A DNA stretch of 64,000 nucleotides from Bacteriovorax sp. MedPE-SWde (GTDB taxonomy: Bacteria; Bdellovibrionota; Bacteriovoracia; Bacteriovoracales; Bacteriovoracaceae). Shown in pieces: positions 38,913 to 45,196 of the stretch. The stretch's first letter is position 1. Each line of letters starts with the position of its first letter. A program made the position numbers and the translations under genes. The notes under the pieces were generated by a model, which did not search any database, was not told where the DNA came from, and saw only the letters and a program-made list of their open reading frames with translations. Location: NCBI GenBank assembly GCA_001874305.1, contig MPCU01000011.1, positions 1 through 64,000 of the forward strand, in the 5' to 3' direction.

Positions 38913-39122
38913 ATGAAGAATATAATCTATTACCTTTTCATCCTTTCAACCTTTCTATCCTGTGCAAATGTTAAACAAATTGATCGATCTAGGCTTTCTT
39001 CAAAGATAATGAAGATTGATCCAAAGCCTGAAGAGCAGGCCTTTTTAGAGGAAATTAACTCTTATAGAGAAGGTGCTGCTGGTGGAAGTAGCTCAGTTGG
39101 AGGTGGCTGTGGTTGTAACTAA
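38913..39122 (+). CDS. DUF4266 lipoprotein with C-terminal GGGCGCN
   Basis: The 69-residue lipoprotein has lipobox LSCA (Cys17), a middle segment KIMKIDPKPEEQAFLEEINS, then SYREGAAGGSSSVGGGCGCN at the end. The D-P-x-P-x-E helix, the (S/Y)REGAxGG and the terminal GGxCGCN match DUF4266, known from genomes as a short lipoprotein next to DUF3570 and ApbE genes. The CGC tail suggests metal binding, disulfide exchange or a site of modification; none is shown. The codons of the Gly/Cys tail also contain the GGAGG and the GTG start of the next gene. It is first in a five-gene operon; CGGAG precedes its ATG. Confidence 0.9.
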   Translation: MKNIIYYLFILSTFLSCANVKQIDRSRLSSKIMKIDPKPEEQAFLEEINSYREGAAGGSSSVGGGCGCN

Positions 39123-40257
39123 GAAAGAGATTCTCTTTAAGGTTTCTACAGCAGGTTTAATCCTTACAAACTCTATGGCAGAAATGATGGCCAAGGGTAC
39201 ATGGACTTCAAAGCTGTTGATAAATTTCTATGATCAAGATTCAAAAGGTGGACACCAAGTATTTGATGGATCCAAAGAAGAAGGTGCAACAGTATTTGAG
39301 CCTATGCTTTTTCTCTCTCATCAAATTGATGAAACAACTAATATCTCTGGTAATTTTACTCTTGATGCATGGTCTGCTGAATCAGACACAATAATGGATG
39401 CCAATACTGGCGAATCCGGCGAAGGTATTGGTGGGCAGTCACGAACTTCGGCAAACGTCAGTTATGCAAAAGAAACAGAGTCTGGCACTTGGACACCAAG
39501 AATTGGCTACAGTTCAGAGTACGACTACTCTAGTATTAATACAGGTCTTAATTGGAGTCGTGCATTTGCTGAAGATAATTTTGTTCTCAATATCAACGGA
39601 CAATATTTTAAAGATAAGAATAAATTATTCAATTACACAACTGAATTAATTGGTGATGGTGAAAATAAGAATGTCTATTCATTTGATATTTCGGCCACAC
39701 AAATGCTAACAAGAAATTCAATAGTATTATTTGGCCTTAGCTATATAAATCAAAAAGGCGCTCTAGAAAGTATTCGCAATACTGTTGCTTACCAAGGGGC
39801 CCGTACAACAGAAGAGCTGCCAAACTCACGATCTCGAAATGCATACTATACTCAGTATATTCACGCACTAAATGATAACCATGCTCTATCTTTTAAGTAT
39901 CGTTATTACAATGATGATTGGGATCTATCCGCTCACTCAGCAGAGACTTCACTAAGGTCATTTATCCAAGATGAAGATGGCTTCATTGAACTCTCCTATC
40001 GTTATCATGACCAAGATCAAACAAAGTATTATACACAAGAGTATAATGGAAAGGATGAATTTAGAACGAGCGATAGTGACCTCGCAAGCTTCTCTTCACA
40101 TCGATTTGGATTTCACTATTCATACTCTCTAGGAGAAAAGGCACTACCCTTTGTTACTTTTGACGAAGTTGACCTAACTACTGGCGCCTATCACTACTTT
40201 AGATCAAATGACCTAAGCTATAATACTGTTCAGTTTGGAATAGGAGTTCAGTTCTAA
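39109..40257 (+). CDS. DUF3570 outer-membrane protein
   Basis: The GTG at 39109 is chosen because GGAGG lies 5 bp upstream; it overlaps the DUF4266 gene by 14 bp and gives 382 residues. A signal-like segment (FKVSTAGLILTNSMA) is followed by amphipathic strands and a barrel-like end (TVQFGIGVQF). This order and the neighbours fit DUF3570. DUF3570 proteins, from memory, often carry a DxLTGAS-like motif near the N-terminus, of the type used for FMN attachment. Here the corresponding stretch reads DAWSAES (from residue 86), with DANTGES (from 97) close by, so neither keeps the G-A pair. The stop overlaps the apbE ATG. Confidence 0.87.
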   Translation: MVVTKKEILFKVSTAGLILTNSMAEMMAKGTWTSKLLINFYDQDSKGGHQVFDGSKEEGATVFEPMLFLSHQIDETTNISGNFTLDAWSAESDTIMDANTGESGEGIGGQSRTSANVSYAKETESGTWTPRIGYSSEYDYSSINTGLNWSRAFAEDNFVLNINGQYFKDKNKLFNYTTELIGDGENKNVYSFDISATQMLTRNSIVLFGLSYINQKGALESIRNTVAYQGARTTEELPNSRSRNAYYTQYIHALNDNHALSFKYRYYNDDWDLSAHSAETSLRSFIQDEDGFIELSYRYHDQDQTKYYTQEYNGKDEFRTSDSDLASFSSHRFGFHYSYSLGEKALPFVTFDEVDLTTGAYHYFRSNDLSYNTVQFGIGVQF

Positions 40258-41108
40258 TGAGTTTTATCTCTGTAAAACAAATTCATATGAACTGTGGATG
40301 GGAAATAAAAGTATTTCCTCAAACTCACTTATCAAAAGAGAAGACTGAAACCTTGGTTCTTGAAGCTTTTAAAGAAGTGAAAAGAATTGAAGATCTCTTA
40401 AGTCATTTTAAAGATAGTCCCTTCAATAATATTAATAAATTCGCAGGAATCAAACCTGTTAGAGTTTGCGAAGAGATTTGGAAACTATTAGATGATGCCA
40501 TTGAGTTTTCAAATGATACTCACGGCAGTTTTAATCTCGCTTACCCTAGCAAAGAAGAAGCTCTTAGAGATCATAAACTTATTAGACGCGATTTTGACAC
40601 CAGAGAAGTTTACCTCCCTCACAGAGATATGAGAATATCCCTAGGTGGTCTTGGAAAAGGTTATGCTGTAGATATGGCCTATAAGTATCTTCTCTCTCAA
40701 GGTGTTATAAACTTTCTAGTAAATGGCTCTGGGGATTTACGCTGTCACTCACACGAGCGCGCCCCAAGACCATGGAATCTCGCAATAACCAACCCATTTA
40801 ACCCAGAACTAACAATTGGCCTACTCAAGTTAAAAAACAATGCCATGGCCACAAGTGGAACCTACAAGAAGGGACAACATATAAAGACGCAAGAGATAAA
40901 TCGACCGATTTCTGCTACAATAGTAGCTGACAGCACGAAGGTCGCTGATATGTGGGGAACATATCTCTGCTCTTTAACTTGCACTGAAGCGGTAAAAAAA
41001 ATGAACTCTTCTGGCCTGATTGGGATTATAATAGATTCGTCGGGTAACTGCTTTTCTTCAACAAAGTCGCTAGATGCGCAAAAGCAATACAAGGATAGCT
41101 ATGTATAA
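40257..41108 (+). CDS. ApbE-like FAD:protein FMN transferase, atypical
   Basis: The 283-residue protein has the ApbE core: EDLLSHFKDSPFNNINKFAG (about 45-64), RISLGGLGKGYAVDMAYKYL (126-145), NFLVNGSGDLR, MATSGTYKKGQHI (about 197-209) and VADMWGTYL. This family moves FMN from FAD to a Ser/Thr of envelope proteins. Oddities: no signal peptide or lipobox at the N-terminus; SLGG in place of DLGG; and HI is followed by KTQEINRP rather than the usual (I)DPxTG. So it may be cytoplasmic, a divergent enzyme, or poorly active. It overlaps DUF3570 by 1 bp and TlpA by 8 bp. The likely targets are the operon products. Confidence 0.87.
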   Translation: MSFISVKQIHMNCGWEIKVFPQTHLSKEKTETLVLEAFKEVKRIEDLLSHFKDSPFNNINKFAGIKPVRVCEEIWKLLDDAIEFSNDTHGSFNLAYPSKEEALRDHKLIRRDFDTREVYLPHRDMRISLGGLGKGYAVDMAYKYLLSQGVINFLVNGSGDLRCHSHERAPRPWNLAITNPFNPELTIGLLKLKNNAMATSGTYKKGQHIKTQEINRPISATIVADSTKVADMWGTYLCSLTCTEAVKKMNSSGLIGIIIDSSGNCFSSTKSLDAQKQYKDSYV

Positions 41109-41544
41109 AGTTTTAATAGTCTTATTACTTTCACTACTTACTTTTTCAAAAGAGTTAAATATTACTCCGTCGAATTTCTATCTCAAGGAGTATAATAAGA
41201 AAGACACTGAAGTTACCTTAGATGATTTTAAAGGAAAGAAGGTTCTCATAAATTTTTGGGCATCTTGGTGCGTAAGCTGTGTAGAGGAAGTACCTGAACT
41301 TAATGCTCTTATGACATCATCAAAAGCAAAGAACTATCACTTCATAGGTCTTAATGCTGGAGATACAAAGAGAAAGATAAAGAAGTTTATAAAGAGAAGA
41401 AAGTTTAAATATAGAACCCTCATTGATAGAGATAGAAGTGTTTCTAAGCAGTGGGGAGTTGATGCTCTTCCAGTAACAGTCATTCTAGATGAATATGGAA
41501 AGGTTATATTTCAAGGGATCAGACCTCCAAAGGATCTTCTTTGA
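41101..41544 (+). CDS. TlpA/ResA-like thioredoxin, exported
   Basis: The ATG at 41101 has AAGGA upstream and gives 147 residues; it overlaps the apbE end by 8 bp. A short signal segment (KVLIVLLLSLLTFS) precedes a thioredoxin fold with W-C57-V-S-C60 in NFWASWCVSCVEEVPELNAL, then FIGLNAGD and the cis-Pro region DALPVTVILDEYG. A VSC active site fits a TlpA/ResA-type reductant in the periplasm. It could keep the Cys of DUF4266 or of the next product reduced. Confidence 0.9.
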   Translation: MYKVLIVLLLSLLTFSKELNITPSNFYLKEYNKKDTEVTLDDFKGKKVLINFWASWCVSCVEEVPELNALMTSSKAKNYHFIGLNAGDTKRKIKKFIKRRKFKYRTLIDRDRSVSKQWGVDALPVTVILDEYGKVIFQGIRPPKDLL

Positions 41545-42131
41545 TAAAGCTAACTAATCTAACAACAATAACTCTTATACTCTTTTGCCAGCTAGCAACT
41601 CTCGCAGATTATGAAGAAGAGAGAACTACTAACGTTTTAACGATTAGAGAAAGTTTCGATAAAAAGAAGAGCTACCCTATTAAGAAGATCTCTAAGAAAC
41701 GAATGACTCCAACGGGCCCGAGGGTAATACATATAGAAACTTATTCTGATGCTTCTTGTATCATCCCGCTAGATAGAATTGTCTCCGCTCCAAGAGTAAA
41801 CTATGAAGGGTGCACGCACTGTTTTGATGACGATATAGAAATGGAGAACTTCTATACTGATCTTTTCTTAAATAGAAGAGATCCTCATATCACTTGTGAC
41901 AAGACCGATGGTAAACTTGTTGGTTTTCAATTCTTAGGGGGAACAACTATAAATGGGAAATCGATGTTTACTTCCCACGCGCTTTCTCTAGATACGGCGG
42001 ACTATCGAAATGGTAAATTTCAAGAAGAGAAAGAAAAATTAAATCCTATCCAAAAAGCACTTAATCAAGTTGAGGATGTTCTTCTCGATCTTATAATTGA
42101 CGTTGGTACGACTACACCAGACTTTAAATAA
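41541..42131 (+). CDS. Secreted CxxC protein, last gene of flavin/redox operon
   Basis: The TTG at 41541 overlaps the tlpA stop (TTGA) and has AAGGA 5 bp upstream. The 196-residue product has a signal peptide (TTITLILFCQLATLA), then a region with CIIPLDRIVSAPRVNYEG, C91THC94 and HITCDK, and an amphipathic C-terminal part (LNPIQKALNQVEDVLLDLII). The CxxC and two further Cys suit a redox or metal role next to TlpA. The family was not recognised. It ends the operon with a clear terminator. Confidence 0.8.
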   Translation: MIKLTNLTTITLILFCQLATLADYEEERTTNVLTIRESFDKKKSYPIKKISKKRMTPTGPRVIHIETYSDASCIIPLDRIVSAPRVNYEGCTHCFDDDIEMENFYTDLFLNRRDPHITCDKTDGKLVGFQFLGGTTINGKSMFTSHALSLDTADYRNGKFQEEKEKLNPIQKALNQVEDVLLDLIIDVGTTTPDFK

Positions 42132-42159
42132 AAAAAGGTGATCCTAAGACCACCTTTTT
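42132..42159 (+). terminator. Terminator of the DUF4266-TlpA operon
   Basis: AAAAAGGTG/CACCTTTTT arms with a 10-nt loop lie right after the stop of the last gene. The U-tract is part of the 3' arm. Confidence 0.85.
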
Positions 42160-42193: not shown

Positions 42194-43465
42194 TTACATA
42201 CACTCTGAGTTTGTTAAGACTTCCTCATCAGGGAAAATAAGATTCCCGGCCGGAAGTACTGATTTAATATGCTTGAGTTCACGTCTCCCATCACCATGTC
42301 TTTTAGGAGATGATAGCTCTTCTCTAACTGCAAGTTCTTCATCAAACTCTGACATATCTTTATTAATTATTTCTAACTCTACTCTTCTAGTATCGTATTG
42401 GTTTACCATTCTTGTTGGAAGTGCTTTTACTCCATTAATGAATGTCCCATTCTCATTCTTAGTTAGACCTAGAAAGAGAACAACTGATGCTCTTTGAGCT
42501 ATCTTCTTATTAAGACACTTTGATTCACCCTTACACTCAGATCTTCTTCCACCTTGGTTAGATGCAAAGTTTCCTAGAGAGTAAATAATAAACCCTTCAC
42601 TTCCATCTTTTCTCTCAACTTTTTCCATTGGCTGAAGAACATGAGGATGTGATCCTATTACCGCAGTTGCACCCATGTTAATCCACTTATGTGCTGCGAC
42701 TCTTTGCTTTTTAGACTCATTACTAACATACTCTTTACCCCAGTGTGGTGTAATGATTATTGCGTCAGTCTTATCTTTTAGCTTTTCAATAATTGACTTT
42801 ATTCTCTTCTTACCTTTTGTTGATTCACAGTACATTACTTGGTCATACTTATCAGTAAGTCCATAGTTAACAAAGAATGTACAACCAATCCAAGCAACTT
42901 TTACGCCATCAATATCAGTAACTCTATACCAATCAGATAACTTATCTCTTCTTTCTTTTTTCTTTAATCTTGTTCCGATGAATTCTAATTCTTGTTTTTC
43001 AATCTCTTTAATTGTTTGATCAACTCCACGAGACCATCTGTCTAATGAGTGATTATTAGCAGTAGAGATAATATCAAGACCACTATTTTTTAAGTCACGA
43101 ATAACTTTTGGGTTGTAGTTAAATCTTGGGTATGAAGAGTAAACCTTTCCATCATAAACAAAACCAGGATCCTTTACTCTTTCACCTTTCTTATTTGTTC
43201 CCTTAGCTGCAGGGGACTCAAGGTTACCATATGAGTAGTCAGCATTTTCAAAGTAAGGAATGACATCTTGCCATAGAGCTTCAAAAGAATTCTCTCTGAT
43301 AGCACGTCTCTGTAATGTCTCGTGCAAGAGTATATCTCCGACTGCGGAAATTGTTATACTCTTTCCCCCTTCACATGCACGAGAAAAACGCATCGTATCT
43401 GCAGCAGTACTGCTTAAGGCCGATACCATGGCCAATGTCATTCCTAATACTTTAAAAGACTTCAT
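42194..43465 (-). CDS. CapA-family exported protein
   Basis: The 423-residue protein has a signal peptide (GMTLAMVSALSSTAA) and the CapA/PGA_cap core: ISAVGDILLHETLQ, YGNLESPAA, LDIISTANNHSLDRWSRG, ITPHWGKEY, MGATAVIGSHPHVLQPME and FIIYSLGNFASNQ. The D, N-E, NNH, HWG and SHPH motifs are the metal-binding residues of the calcineurin-like fold. In Bacillus CapA is needed for poly-gamma-glutamate capsule; without capB/capC here the substrate is open. AAGGG precedes the ATG. It lies 21 bp downstream of the L,D-transpeptidase gene, so a joint wall or envelope role is possible. Confidence 0.92.
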   Translation of the reverse strand: MKSFKVLGMTLAMVSALSSTAADTMRFSRACEGGKSITISAVGDILLHETLQRRAIRENSFEALWQDVIPYFENADYSYGNLESPAAKGTNKKGERVKDPGFVYDGKVYSSYPRFNYNPKVIRDLKNSGLDIISTANNHSLDRWSRGVDQTIKEIEKQELEFIGTRLKKKERRDKLSDWYRVTDIDGVKVAWIGCTFFVNYGLTDKYDQVMYCESTKGKKRIKSIIEKLKDKTDAIIITPHWGKEYVSNESKKQRVAAHKWINMGATAVIGSHPHVLQPMEKVERKDGSEGFIIYSLGNFASNQGGRRSECKGESKCLNKKIAQRASVVLFLGLTKNENGTFINGVKALPTRMVNQYDTRRVELEIINKDMSEFDEELAVREELSSPKRHGDGRRELKHIKSVLPAGNLIFPDEEVLTNSECM

Positions 43466-43486: not shown

Positions 43487-44986
43487 TTATTTTTTGTAAT
43501 TCTTAATTTGTATAAACCCTGGAATCTTTTGTGATTTAAAACCACCTTTAATTATTCCTTTTGCTTCTGGATGCTTATAACCTTCAAGAAGTCCTGTATC
43601 TACATTGAATGCACCAACAAATGCTTTCGCTGGGATTTTATATAGGTTACAACCCTTTCTAATTTTCTTATAATCATCTCTAAGTCTATCTCTGTCTCCT
43701 TCACGACACTTTGTTGACTTATTCTTTTGCTGAGTAACTAATGGATAGTTCTTAAACTTGAAAGTTCCTTCCTCTAATATTCTTTCAGAAGATACTCCAG
43801 AAGCATCTACACTTTGCTTATGTGAAGTTACTGCATTTTCATGCGTTCCTCTTACACCATCTTTAGTAAGTGCAAAGTCCCAAGTAAATACTGCATCTTT
43901 GTTATAACTCTTTTTCATCGATGCTTCGTCTTGATACTTTTCAAGTGCATAGACTTTAACTAGCGGTGTTCCAACCGGTAGTAAGTGTCTTAAGAAAGCA
44001 ACTGTTGGGTTACTTACTCTTGAACAACCTGAACTTCTTAATGAAGTAAATGTATTTGCGATGGCACCTAAGAAGTCTTCACCTTTCGCTCTTTTAATAT
44101 TTTCTTCTGATGACTCGGCCCAACCAATTGTTCCGTGTGTCCACTGATCTTGCCCATAATTTGGCTCTACAAGTGCTGTATACCAACCAAATGCTCCTCT
44201 CATCATGCCTTTGTAAGAACATTTTCTCTTACCATCTTTTGTTGAACAGTATTCCCAAGGCATATACTCACCCTTGAACCACTTTGACCAACTATCATCT
44301 GGGCTAGGTTGTTCCGGAGATTTTGGATCAAACCATGATGGGTAGTGTCCACCATTTCTATCTTGATAAAACTTATGCCATTCAAAAATTCTATAATTTC
44401 CAACTTGAGTTCTCTTTCCAAACTTCTTATCACCTTTTTTAAATCCGGCAACAAAGTCTGTTTGAAGAAGAAGTTTTGGAGGACATGAATTATCCTTACA
44501 AACTCTTTGATAAACTCTTAGTTTTTCTGTCGCAACATTTTGAACCATATATACATCAGCATCAAAATCTTTATAATCTTGATACTCAGATAGTCCTCTT
44601 ATCTTCATAAATAATGTTTTATTTCTTAGTGCATAATCAGATGAACTATTGATCTTAACTTGGATATATTTCTCACCTAATTCTTCAGCCATTCCAATAA
44701 CAGTCAGACGATCTAGTCTTCCGGCCATTCTATGTCTCTTTAACTCACCGTTCACTTTCTTATAAGTATTCACATAACGGTCATAAACCATCACCTGATC
44801 ACCTACTTTAAGTTCAGACTTTGCCAAAAACTTCTTTGGAACTTCTCCGGCCTTAAAGCCTGTTTTTGAGAAATTATTGACCGAAATGTCTTTCATTTGT
44901 GGATAAGAATACGGCGTAGCTGTCGCTGCAAGCGCAGAAGTTATTGATATTCCTAGTAAAACCTGTCGCAAAAGTGCTTTTTTCAC
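43487..44986 (-). CDS. Large L,D-transpeptidase (YkuD-like)
   Basis: The GTG at 44986 has GGAGG 5 bp upstream and gives 499 residues with signal peptide MKKALLRQVLLGISITSALA. About residues 55-160 are beta-rich. The catalytic YkuD part begins near LRVYQRVC and has H284 in TIGW context (WTHGTIGWAES) and the nucleophile C321 in RSSGCSRVSN, followed by LLPVGTPLVKVY. A C-terminal extension of about 150 residues with further Cys is unassigned. Such enzymes form 3-3 cross-links in peptidoglycan or attach proteins; predatory Bdellovibrio uses several on prey and self wall. Its joint position with capA suggests envelope remodelling. Confidence 0.9.
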   Translation of the reverse strand: MKKALLRQVLLGISITSALAATATPYSYPQMKDISVNNFSKTGFKAGEVPKKFLAKSELKVGDQVMVYDRYVNTYKKVNGELKRHRMAGRLDRLTVIGMAEELGEKYIQVKINSSSDYALRNKTLFMKIRGLSEYQDYKDFDADVYMVQNVATEKLRVYQRVCKDNSCPPKLLLQTDFVAGFKKGDKKFGKRTQVGNYRIFEWHKFYQDRNGGHYPSWFDPKSPEQPSPDDSWSKWFKGEYMPWEYCSTKDGKRKCSYKGMMRGAFGWYTALVEPNYGQDQWTHGTIGWAESSEENIKRAKGEDFLGAIANTFTSLRSSGCSRVSNPTVAFLRHLLPVGTPLVKVYALEKYQDEASMKKSYNKDAVFTWDFALTKDGVRGTHENAVTSHKQSVDASGVSSERILEEGTFKFKNYPLVTQQKNKSTKCREGDRDRLRDDYKKIRKGCNLYKIPAKAFVGAFNVDTGLLEGYKHPEAKGIIKGGFKSQKIPGFIQIKNYKK

Positions 44987-45196
44987 GTATTCCTCCAAAA
45001 AGTAAACTTAGTGTATTTCTATAATAAATATCACATTGCGCGACGCATCACATCAATTTTGGCCAATGGGTGAAGTTTTTACAATGATTGACCATAATTT
45101 GAACGCAAATTGAGAATGATATTTTCTGAGATTTTTGACACATTCAAAGCACTTAACCTATCATTTTAGTCACACATACATATTGGAGACAACAAA

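Follow-up and report, generated by a model that had tools for sequence, protein, structure and literature searches.

A divergent member of the DUF3570/DUF4266/ApbE/thioredoxin gene clusters in Bacteriovorax, with an ApbE lacking an export signal

The first 64,000 nucleotides (nt) of contig MPCU01000011.1 of Bacteriovorax sp. MedPE-SWde (genome size 3.76 Mb), here called the window, contain at 38913-42131 five co-directional genes on the plus strand, each starting within or adjoining the previous one. They specify a DUF4266 lipoprotein, a DUF3570 outer-membrane barrel, an ApbE-family flavin transferase, a TlpA-like thioredoxin, and a further secreted protein, gene 5. In a preliminary description, all five had been regarded as a candidate envelope flavin/thiol system. 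Two features absent from that description, an ApbE without export signal and a DUF3570 without the published acceptor motif [S/T]GA[S/T], raise the question of how this operon relates to known flavinylation systems and where its barrel could acquire a flavin.

Gene clusters combining ApbE with DUF3570, a thioredoxin-like protein and DUF4266 were reported by Meheust et al. 2021 in eLife (PMC8238504). In Chlorobium luteolum, the cognate ApbE flavinylates the DUF3570 protein at two [S/T]GA[S/T] sites, and redox cycling was suggested for the C-terminal CXC of DUF4266 (PMC8238504). Such clusters are common with or without DsbD, 316 of them having no linked DsbD (PMC8238504). Judged from its sequence, the operon is a divergent member of this system. 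The idea of an envelope flavin/thiol system therefore agrees with PMC8238504, but was in essence already published and is not new. Likewise, the co-occurrence of DUF3570 and DUF4266 with ApbE, mentioned in the preliminary description, is correct, but their function is less unsettled than stated there, since flavinylation of the C. luteolum protein is known. In the library searched, no literature naming DUF3570 or DUF4266 was found beyond PMC8238504, and DUF3570 is not mentioned in the model survey of a 2024 follow-up. The features of the operon are as follows.

38913-39122, plus strand: DUF4266 lipoprotein of 69 amino acids with lipobox LSC-AN (Pfam PF14086, 62.1 bits, cut-off 27); DUF3570 adjoins wherever DUF4266 was found
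39109-40257, plus strand: DUF3570 protein with signal peptide, predicted 16-strand outer-membrane barrel (PF12094, 79.9 bits, cut-off 25; AlphaFold model; barrel matches in PDB)
39364-39417, plus strand: two predicted flavin acceptor heptads, DAWSAES (Ser92) and DANTGES (Ser103), from an alignment of 74 DUF3570 sequences
40257-41108, plus strand: ApbE-family flavin transferase of 283 amino acids (PF02424, 114-119.8 bits, cut-off 25.6; model fold), without signal peptide and with a shorter loop ahead of the active-site His
41101-41544 (alternative start 41074), plus strand: TlpA/ResA-like periplasmic thioredoxin, WASWCVSC (Redoxin PF08534; Redoxin/AhpC-TSA 90/83 bits, cut-offs about 26; ResA model, 87 bits), also in 24 Bacteriovoracia-type loci
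41541-42131, plus strand: gene 5, secreted protein with four cysteines, no family, co-transcribed here
about 42132-42159, plus strand: terminator hairpin and U tract, detected by RNA folding

The identities proposed earlier for barrel, transferase and thioredoxin were confirmed by Pfam, those of the barrel and ApbE also by structure models, and the lipoprotein indeed ends in GGGCGCN. As in the published clusters, ApbE, DUF3570, a thioredoxin-like protein and a DUF4266 with C-terminal CXC are found in one operon. The barrel has a signal peptide and an even number of strands, and ApbE possesses the fold and the catalytic Ser-His-Asp. Unlike in the published clusters, the acceptors are SAES and TGES within their heptads instead of two [S/T]GA[S/T] motifs. 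The thioredoxin is a redoxin of the TlpA/ResA type and reaches only 14.7 bits (cut-off 27) with PF13899 (Thioredoxin_7), the type present in most published clusters (PMC8238504). A linked DsbD, which defines only the DsbD subset, is absent, the single DsbD gene of the genome being located on another contig (G000:C8; G-numbers denote genomes, G000 being that of the window, and L-numbers loci). Finally, ApbE is not the exported, lipid-anchored type that is typical, not universal, for ApbE FMN transferases.

Linkage was analysed in one genome per species, which yielded 74 loci from Bacteriovoracia, from metagenome-assembled genomes (MAGs) labelled Myxococcota or Gammaproteobacteria, and from Bacteroidota. 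The C-terminus of DUF4266 is GGGCGCN not only in the window but also at all 74 loci, a number to be read with the scan having been seeded partly on this tail; the same tail is present in relatives found by Pfam. DUF3570 adjoins DUF4266 in 74/74 loci, and in 24 of 26 Bacteriovoracia-type loci ApbE and TlpA follow, the other two being cut by contig ends. DUF4266 is present in 11 of 58 related genomes, of which ten also have a hit to the DUF3570 profile; in the remaining one, a fragment of DUF3570 lies at the end of its contig. All-against-all comparison of the Bacteriovoracia-type loci revealed no further gene shared by more than five loci, and a linked DsbD or another conserved neighbour was rejected for these loci. 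Because the four-gene set recurs in 24 of them, it is not a chance arrangement, and the linkage in other genomes on which the preliminary description depended is real for these four genes. Within the genus, the module is present in four of six congeneric genomes. Gammaproteobacterial loci with DUF4266, DUF3570 and TlpA but no adjoining ApbE were also detected (L066, L068, L070-L076, L078-L080, L085), their boxes being mostly SSAS- or LSAS-like. In genomes lacking a linked ApbE, the gene was found elsewhere in 16/16 cases. One Flavobacterium-like locus (L088) is on a contig labelled as a Bifidobacterium breve MAG and probably reflects bin contamination.

Work on ApbE mostly sites flavin attachment in the periplasm. 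Leaders were assessed by a plain hydrophobicity score (not SignalP) over every possible start, with a threshold of 2.0. None of the linked ApbEs in the 24 Bacteriovoracia-type loci and one of 29 in Bacteroidota (L084) reached this value, in contrast to 24 of 25 unlinked ApbEs from related genomes. Among the linked partners, TlpA (24/24), DUF3570 (24/26) and DUF4266 (26/26) did so, the window DUF3570 being slightly below its relatives (1.72). The window ApbE scores 0.89, and none of its possible starts gives a hydrophobic leader; an overlooked start upstream was rejected, since the frame extends in that direction by only 11 codons (294 amino acids open). The linked leaderless copy is the sole ApbE in 10 of 12 Bacteroidota genomes searched, unlinked copies with leaders being present in the other two, and also in two relatives of the window genome that are 99% complete (G018 and G027). 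In those genomes, therefore, no exported ApbE is available. As the linked ApbEs are leaderless and often the sole copy, the flavin is probably attached before export, and by this sequence-based argument DUF3570 would be modified in the cytoplasm, before leaving the cell interior. A term search of the main text of PMC8238504 revealed no comment on leaderless ApbE. A cytosolic leaderless ApbE is known from Klebsiella pneumoniae, where it serves a cytosolic fumarate reductase (PMC12052999). The window genome resembles that of K. pneumoniae in having a second, leaderless ApbE in addition to an exported lipoprotein ApbE; it differs in that the target linked to the leaderless one is an outer-membrane barrel that is exported, whereas the Klebsiella target is cytosolic.

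The window ApbE retains Ser200, His208, Asp231 and Thr235, the catalytic Ser, His and Asp being those named in a review (PMC12052999). Its model (predicted local distance difference test, pLDDT, 91.3) resembles FmnB with flavin adenine dinucleotide (FAD; 7esa/7esb) with a template modelling (TM) score of 0.82. In ApbEs of the window clade, the stretch that normally precedes the active-site His is missing, with QHI or similar in place of HHIxxPxTG; Ser, His and Asp are kept in them, and Thr in most. The same genome contains a full NQR operon with the canonical sites DGLSGAT and DGFTGAT in NqrB/NqrC (L166, G000:C14:98000-110000; L024:4295-5305); another ApbE, a lipoprotein, is encoded separately some 12 kb away and is recorded under the same two loci. 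Both ApbEs belong to one family and share the catalytic triad, but the canonical one has a lipoprotein signal, 297 bits with Pfam ApbE against 114-119.8 for the linked one, the full loop HTIDYRTG, and the two NQR sites as targets. A secreted protein of 188 amino acids with DGLTGAT (L167:2802-3368, G000:C10) is likely a third canonical ApbE target in this genome.

Counted from GTG 39109, the candidate flavin acceptors in the window DUF3570 are Ser92 and Ser103, and both heptads of the window retain the Asp and the Ser that are nearly invariant among the 74 aligned DUF3570 sequences. At site 1, Asp is present in 72/74, Ser in 73/74 and a Ser/Thr acceptor in 74/74; at site 2, Asp is found in 70/74 and Ser in 74/74. 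Most Bacteriovoracia have TAAS at site 1 and TGAS at site 2. In Bacteroidota the boxes are TSAS and SSAS-like although ApbE is linked; many members with a linked ApbE lack the strict motif. TG[E/Q]S at site 2 is restricted in this alignment to the window, G003, L057 and L060, which form one clade in the DUF3570 tree (Shimodaira-Hasegawa-like approximate likelihood ratio test, SH-aLRT, 99) and in the ApbE tree (97), and all four have the trimmed ApbE.

The AlphaFold model of DUF3570, built with 51 homologues, is a 16-strand barrel (mean pLDDT 86.5) that matches porin-, OmpG- and FadL-type barrels in PDB at low identity. In this model, strand 3 ends with site 1, and the loop joining it to strand 4 contains site 2 (residues 90-108). 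In known barrels both termini are periplasmic, hence loops from odd to even strands face outward, and the loop lengths of the model fit this order, the long loops being all outside and those inside having 2-4 residues. Because of the strand order with periplasmic termini, residues 90-108 are predicted on the outer side, in extracellular loop 2. From the model, the flavin could point outward or into the barrel lumen.

Taken together, the best explanation appears to be a divergent system operating as follows, although as a whole it is held with about as much doubt as belief. Most likely, the leaderless ApbE would transfer flavin mononucleotide (FMN) from cytosolic FAD onto Ser92 and Ser103 of precursor DUF3570, either ahead of Sec export or in its course. 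After folding of the barrel in the outer membrane, its extracellular loop 2 would hold both flavin sites. In the periplasm, the unlinked DsbD would probably recharge TlpA (CVSC), and thiol exchange could take place between TlpA and the CGC tail of DUF4266, the outer-membrane lipoprotein that may then reduce or oxidise the barrel flavin; ferric iron is one guess for the partner outside. Flavinylation of the window DUF3570, its timing and all electron-transfer steps are what we infer from several lines of evidence. The C. luteolum protein is flavinylated by its cognate ApbE (PMC8238504); four genes, and no others, are common to Bacteriovoracia-type loci, and the DUF4266-positive relatives all carry DUF3570; linked ApbEs are leaderless, while the ApbE triad and fold and the Asp/Ser of the heptads are kept; and the genome has one DsbD and a separate lipoprotein ApbE for canonical NqrB/NqrC. 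Several points weigh against this explanation. We know of no Sec substrate with covalent FMN, nor of a published test of Glu at the Ala position of the motif. Near its active site the window ApbE is trimmed, and it is fast-evolving, with long branches in the tree, DsbD is unlinked to the operon, and sidedness depends on a model with a low-confidence site loop (pLDDT <50 for residues 92-100). DUF3570 has no [S/T]GA[S/T], Ala being replaced by Glu at both sites; in a Klebsiella substrate, Ala to Val at this position cost about half of flavinylation (PMC12052999).

The altered motif can be read in different ways. It could indicate that flavinylation was lost, barrel, CGC lipoprotein and TlpA using thiol or metal-thiolate chemistry, with the ApbE-like protein otherwise employed, e.g. 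in FAD hydrolysis like Treponema Ftp. The missing [S/T]GA[S/T], the trimmed ApbE in the same four genomes as TG[E/Q]S, and the many gammaproteobacterial loci without adjoining ApbE would fit, but ApbE is still in the operon with triad and fold kept, acceptor Ser and heptad Asp are kept as well, and an ApbE was present elsewhere in every genome lacking a linked one; such a loss is considered unlikely. That the module is decaying and non-functional in the window genome is very improbable: the ApbE is fast-evolving and distribution in the genus is patchy, but every operon frame is open, and neither the CGC tail of DUF4266 nor the thioredoxin CxxC, the ApbE triad or the Asp/Ser of the heptads has been lost. 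Alternatively, motif and trimmed ApbE could be co-adapted, the ApbE of this clade recognizing D-x-x-[S/T]-x-[E/Q]-S and flavinylating it efficiently, apart from the canonical ApbE/NQR pair. This would be a refinement of the proposed precursor flavinylation, compatible with it. It is in line with the joint occurrence of TG[E/Q]S and the trimmed ApbE in one clade of both trees and with the canonical NqrB/NqrC sites and separate ApbE retained by the genome. However, the pattern represents one evolutionary event, and loop and motif do not always match: short loops are also found with TGAS (L055, L061) or TSAS (L063), and L051 combines TGTS with a normal loop. A strong claim of coevolution was thus weakened, and as short loops occur with TGAS, co-adaptation is suggestive only, a possibility we rather doubt.

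The proposal that gene 5 belongs to the system, its CxxC protein acting as a dedicated redox partner of a five-gene set, did not hold. Gene 5 overlaps the TlpA stop and lies before the shared terminator, and four cysteines, including a C-x-x-C, are conserved among the four homologues. But the co-occurrence search suggested earlier revealed no homologue in the 74 other DUF4266 loci; homologues are present in G002 and G015, genomes that have neither DUF4266 nor DUF3570, and the one in G003 is 53 kb from the DUF4266 gene. Gene 5 was therefore rejected as a component, and the five-gene reading is strongly disfavoured, hardly credible in our view. By sequence comparison, gene 5 shares the transcript by position only and is not a conserved part of the system. 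No family was assigned to it by Pfam and further profile searches, and no plasmid relatives were found. The members of the gene 5 family (41541-42131, L155:5732-6274, L156:6370-6945, L157:5923-6453) are in scattered contexts within this bacterial family.

Extended to the whole family, the proposal would be that DUF3570 barrels are flavinylated in the cytoplasm by leaderless ApbEs and carry their covalent FMN through Sec export and BAM insertion, the flavin ending at the outer face and the clade motif being D-x-x-[S/T]-x-[E/Q]-S; this is put forward tentatively and may well be wrong. Since leaderless ApbEs are paired family-wide with an outer-membrane target that is exported, it may be asked whether an FMN-bearing protein can cross the Sec pore, for which these loci supply natural test pairs. 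If flavins are on the outer face, cytochrome-free electron transfer across the outer membrane would be possible, in predatory bacteria and many Bacteroidota. Three points merit testing: possible flavin attachment to an outer-membrane protein while still in the cytoplasm, the unusual Glu at either acceptor site, and the predicted location of the flavin sites on the outer face.

The overlapping or Shine-Dalgarno-coupled starts and the single terminator noted earlier were found again. The most likely start of DUF3570 is GTG 39109, overlapping the 3' end of DUF4266 by about 14 nt. GGAGGT, which codes for two glycines of the DUF4266 tail (39099-39122), also resembles a Shine-Dalgarno sequence for this GTG, and the overlap recurs in relatives. 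The ApbE start is within the DUF3570 stop (TAATG, 40257), TlpA starts within ApbE at ATG 41074 or 41101, and gene 5 at TTG 41541. The terminator hairpin has a folding energy of -10.1 kcal/mol (z = -3.6), and none of 200 shuffled sequences was equally good; a simple terminator scan, unlike RNA folding, made no call at 42132-42159. No Rfam elements were found near the operon. Further downstream, a gene for a PGA_cap-family protein (42194-43465) adjoins a minus-strand gene (43487-44998) for a secreted protein of 503 amino acids with a sub-threshold match to L,D-transpeptidase (YkuD).

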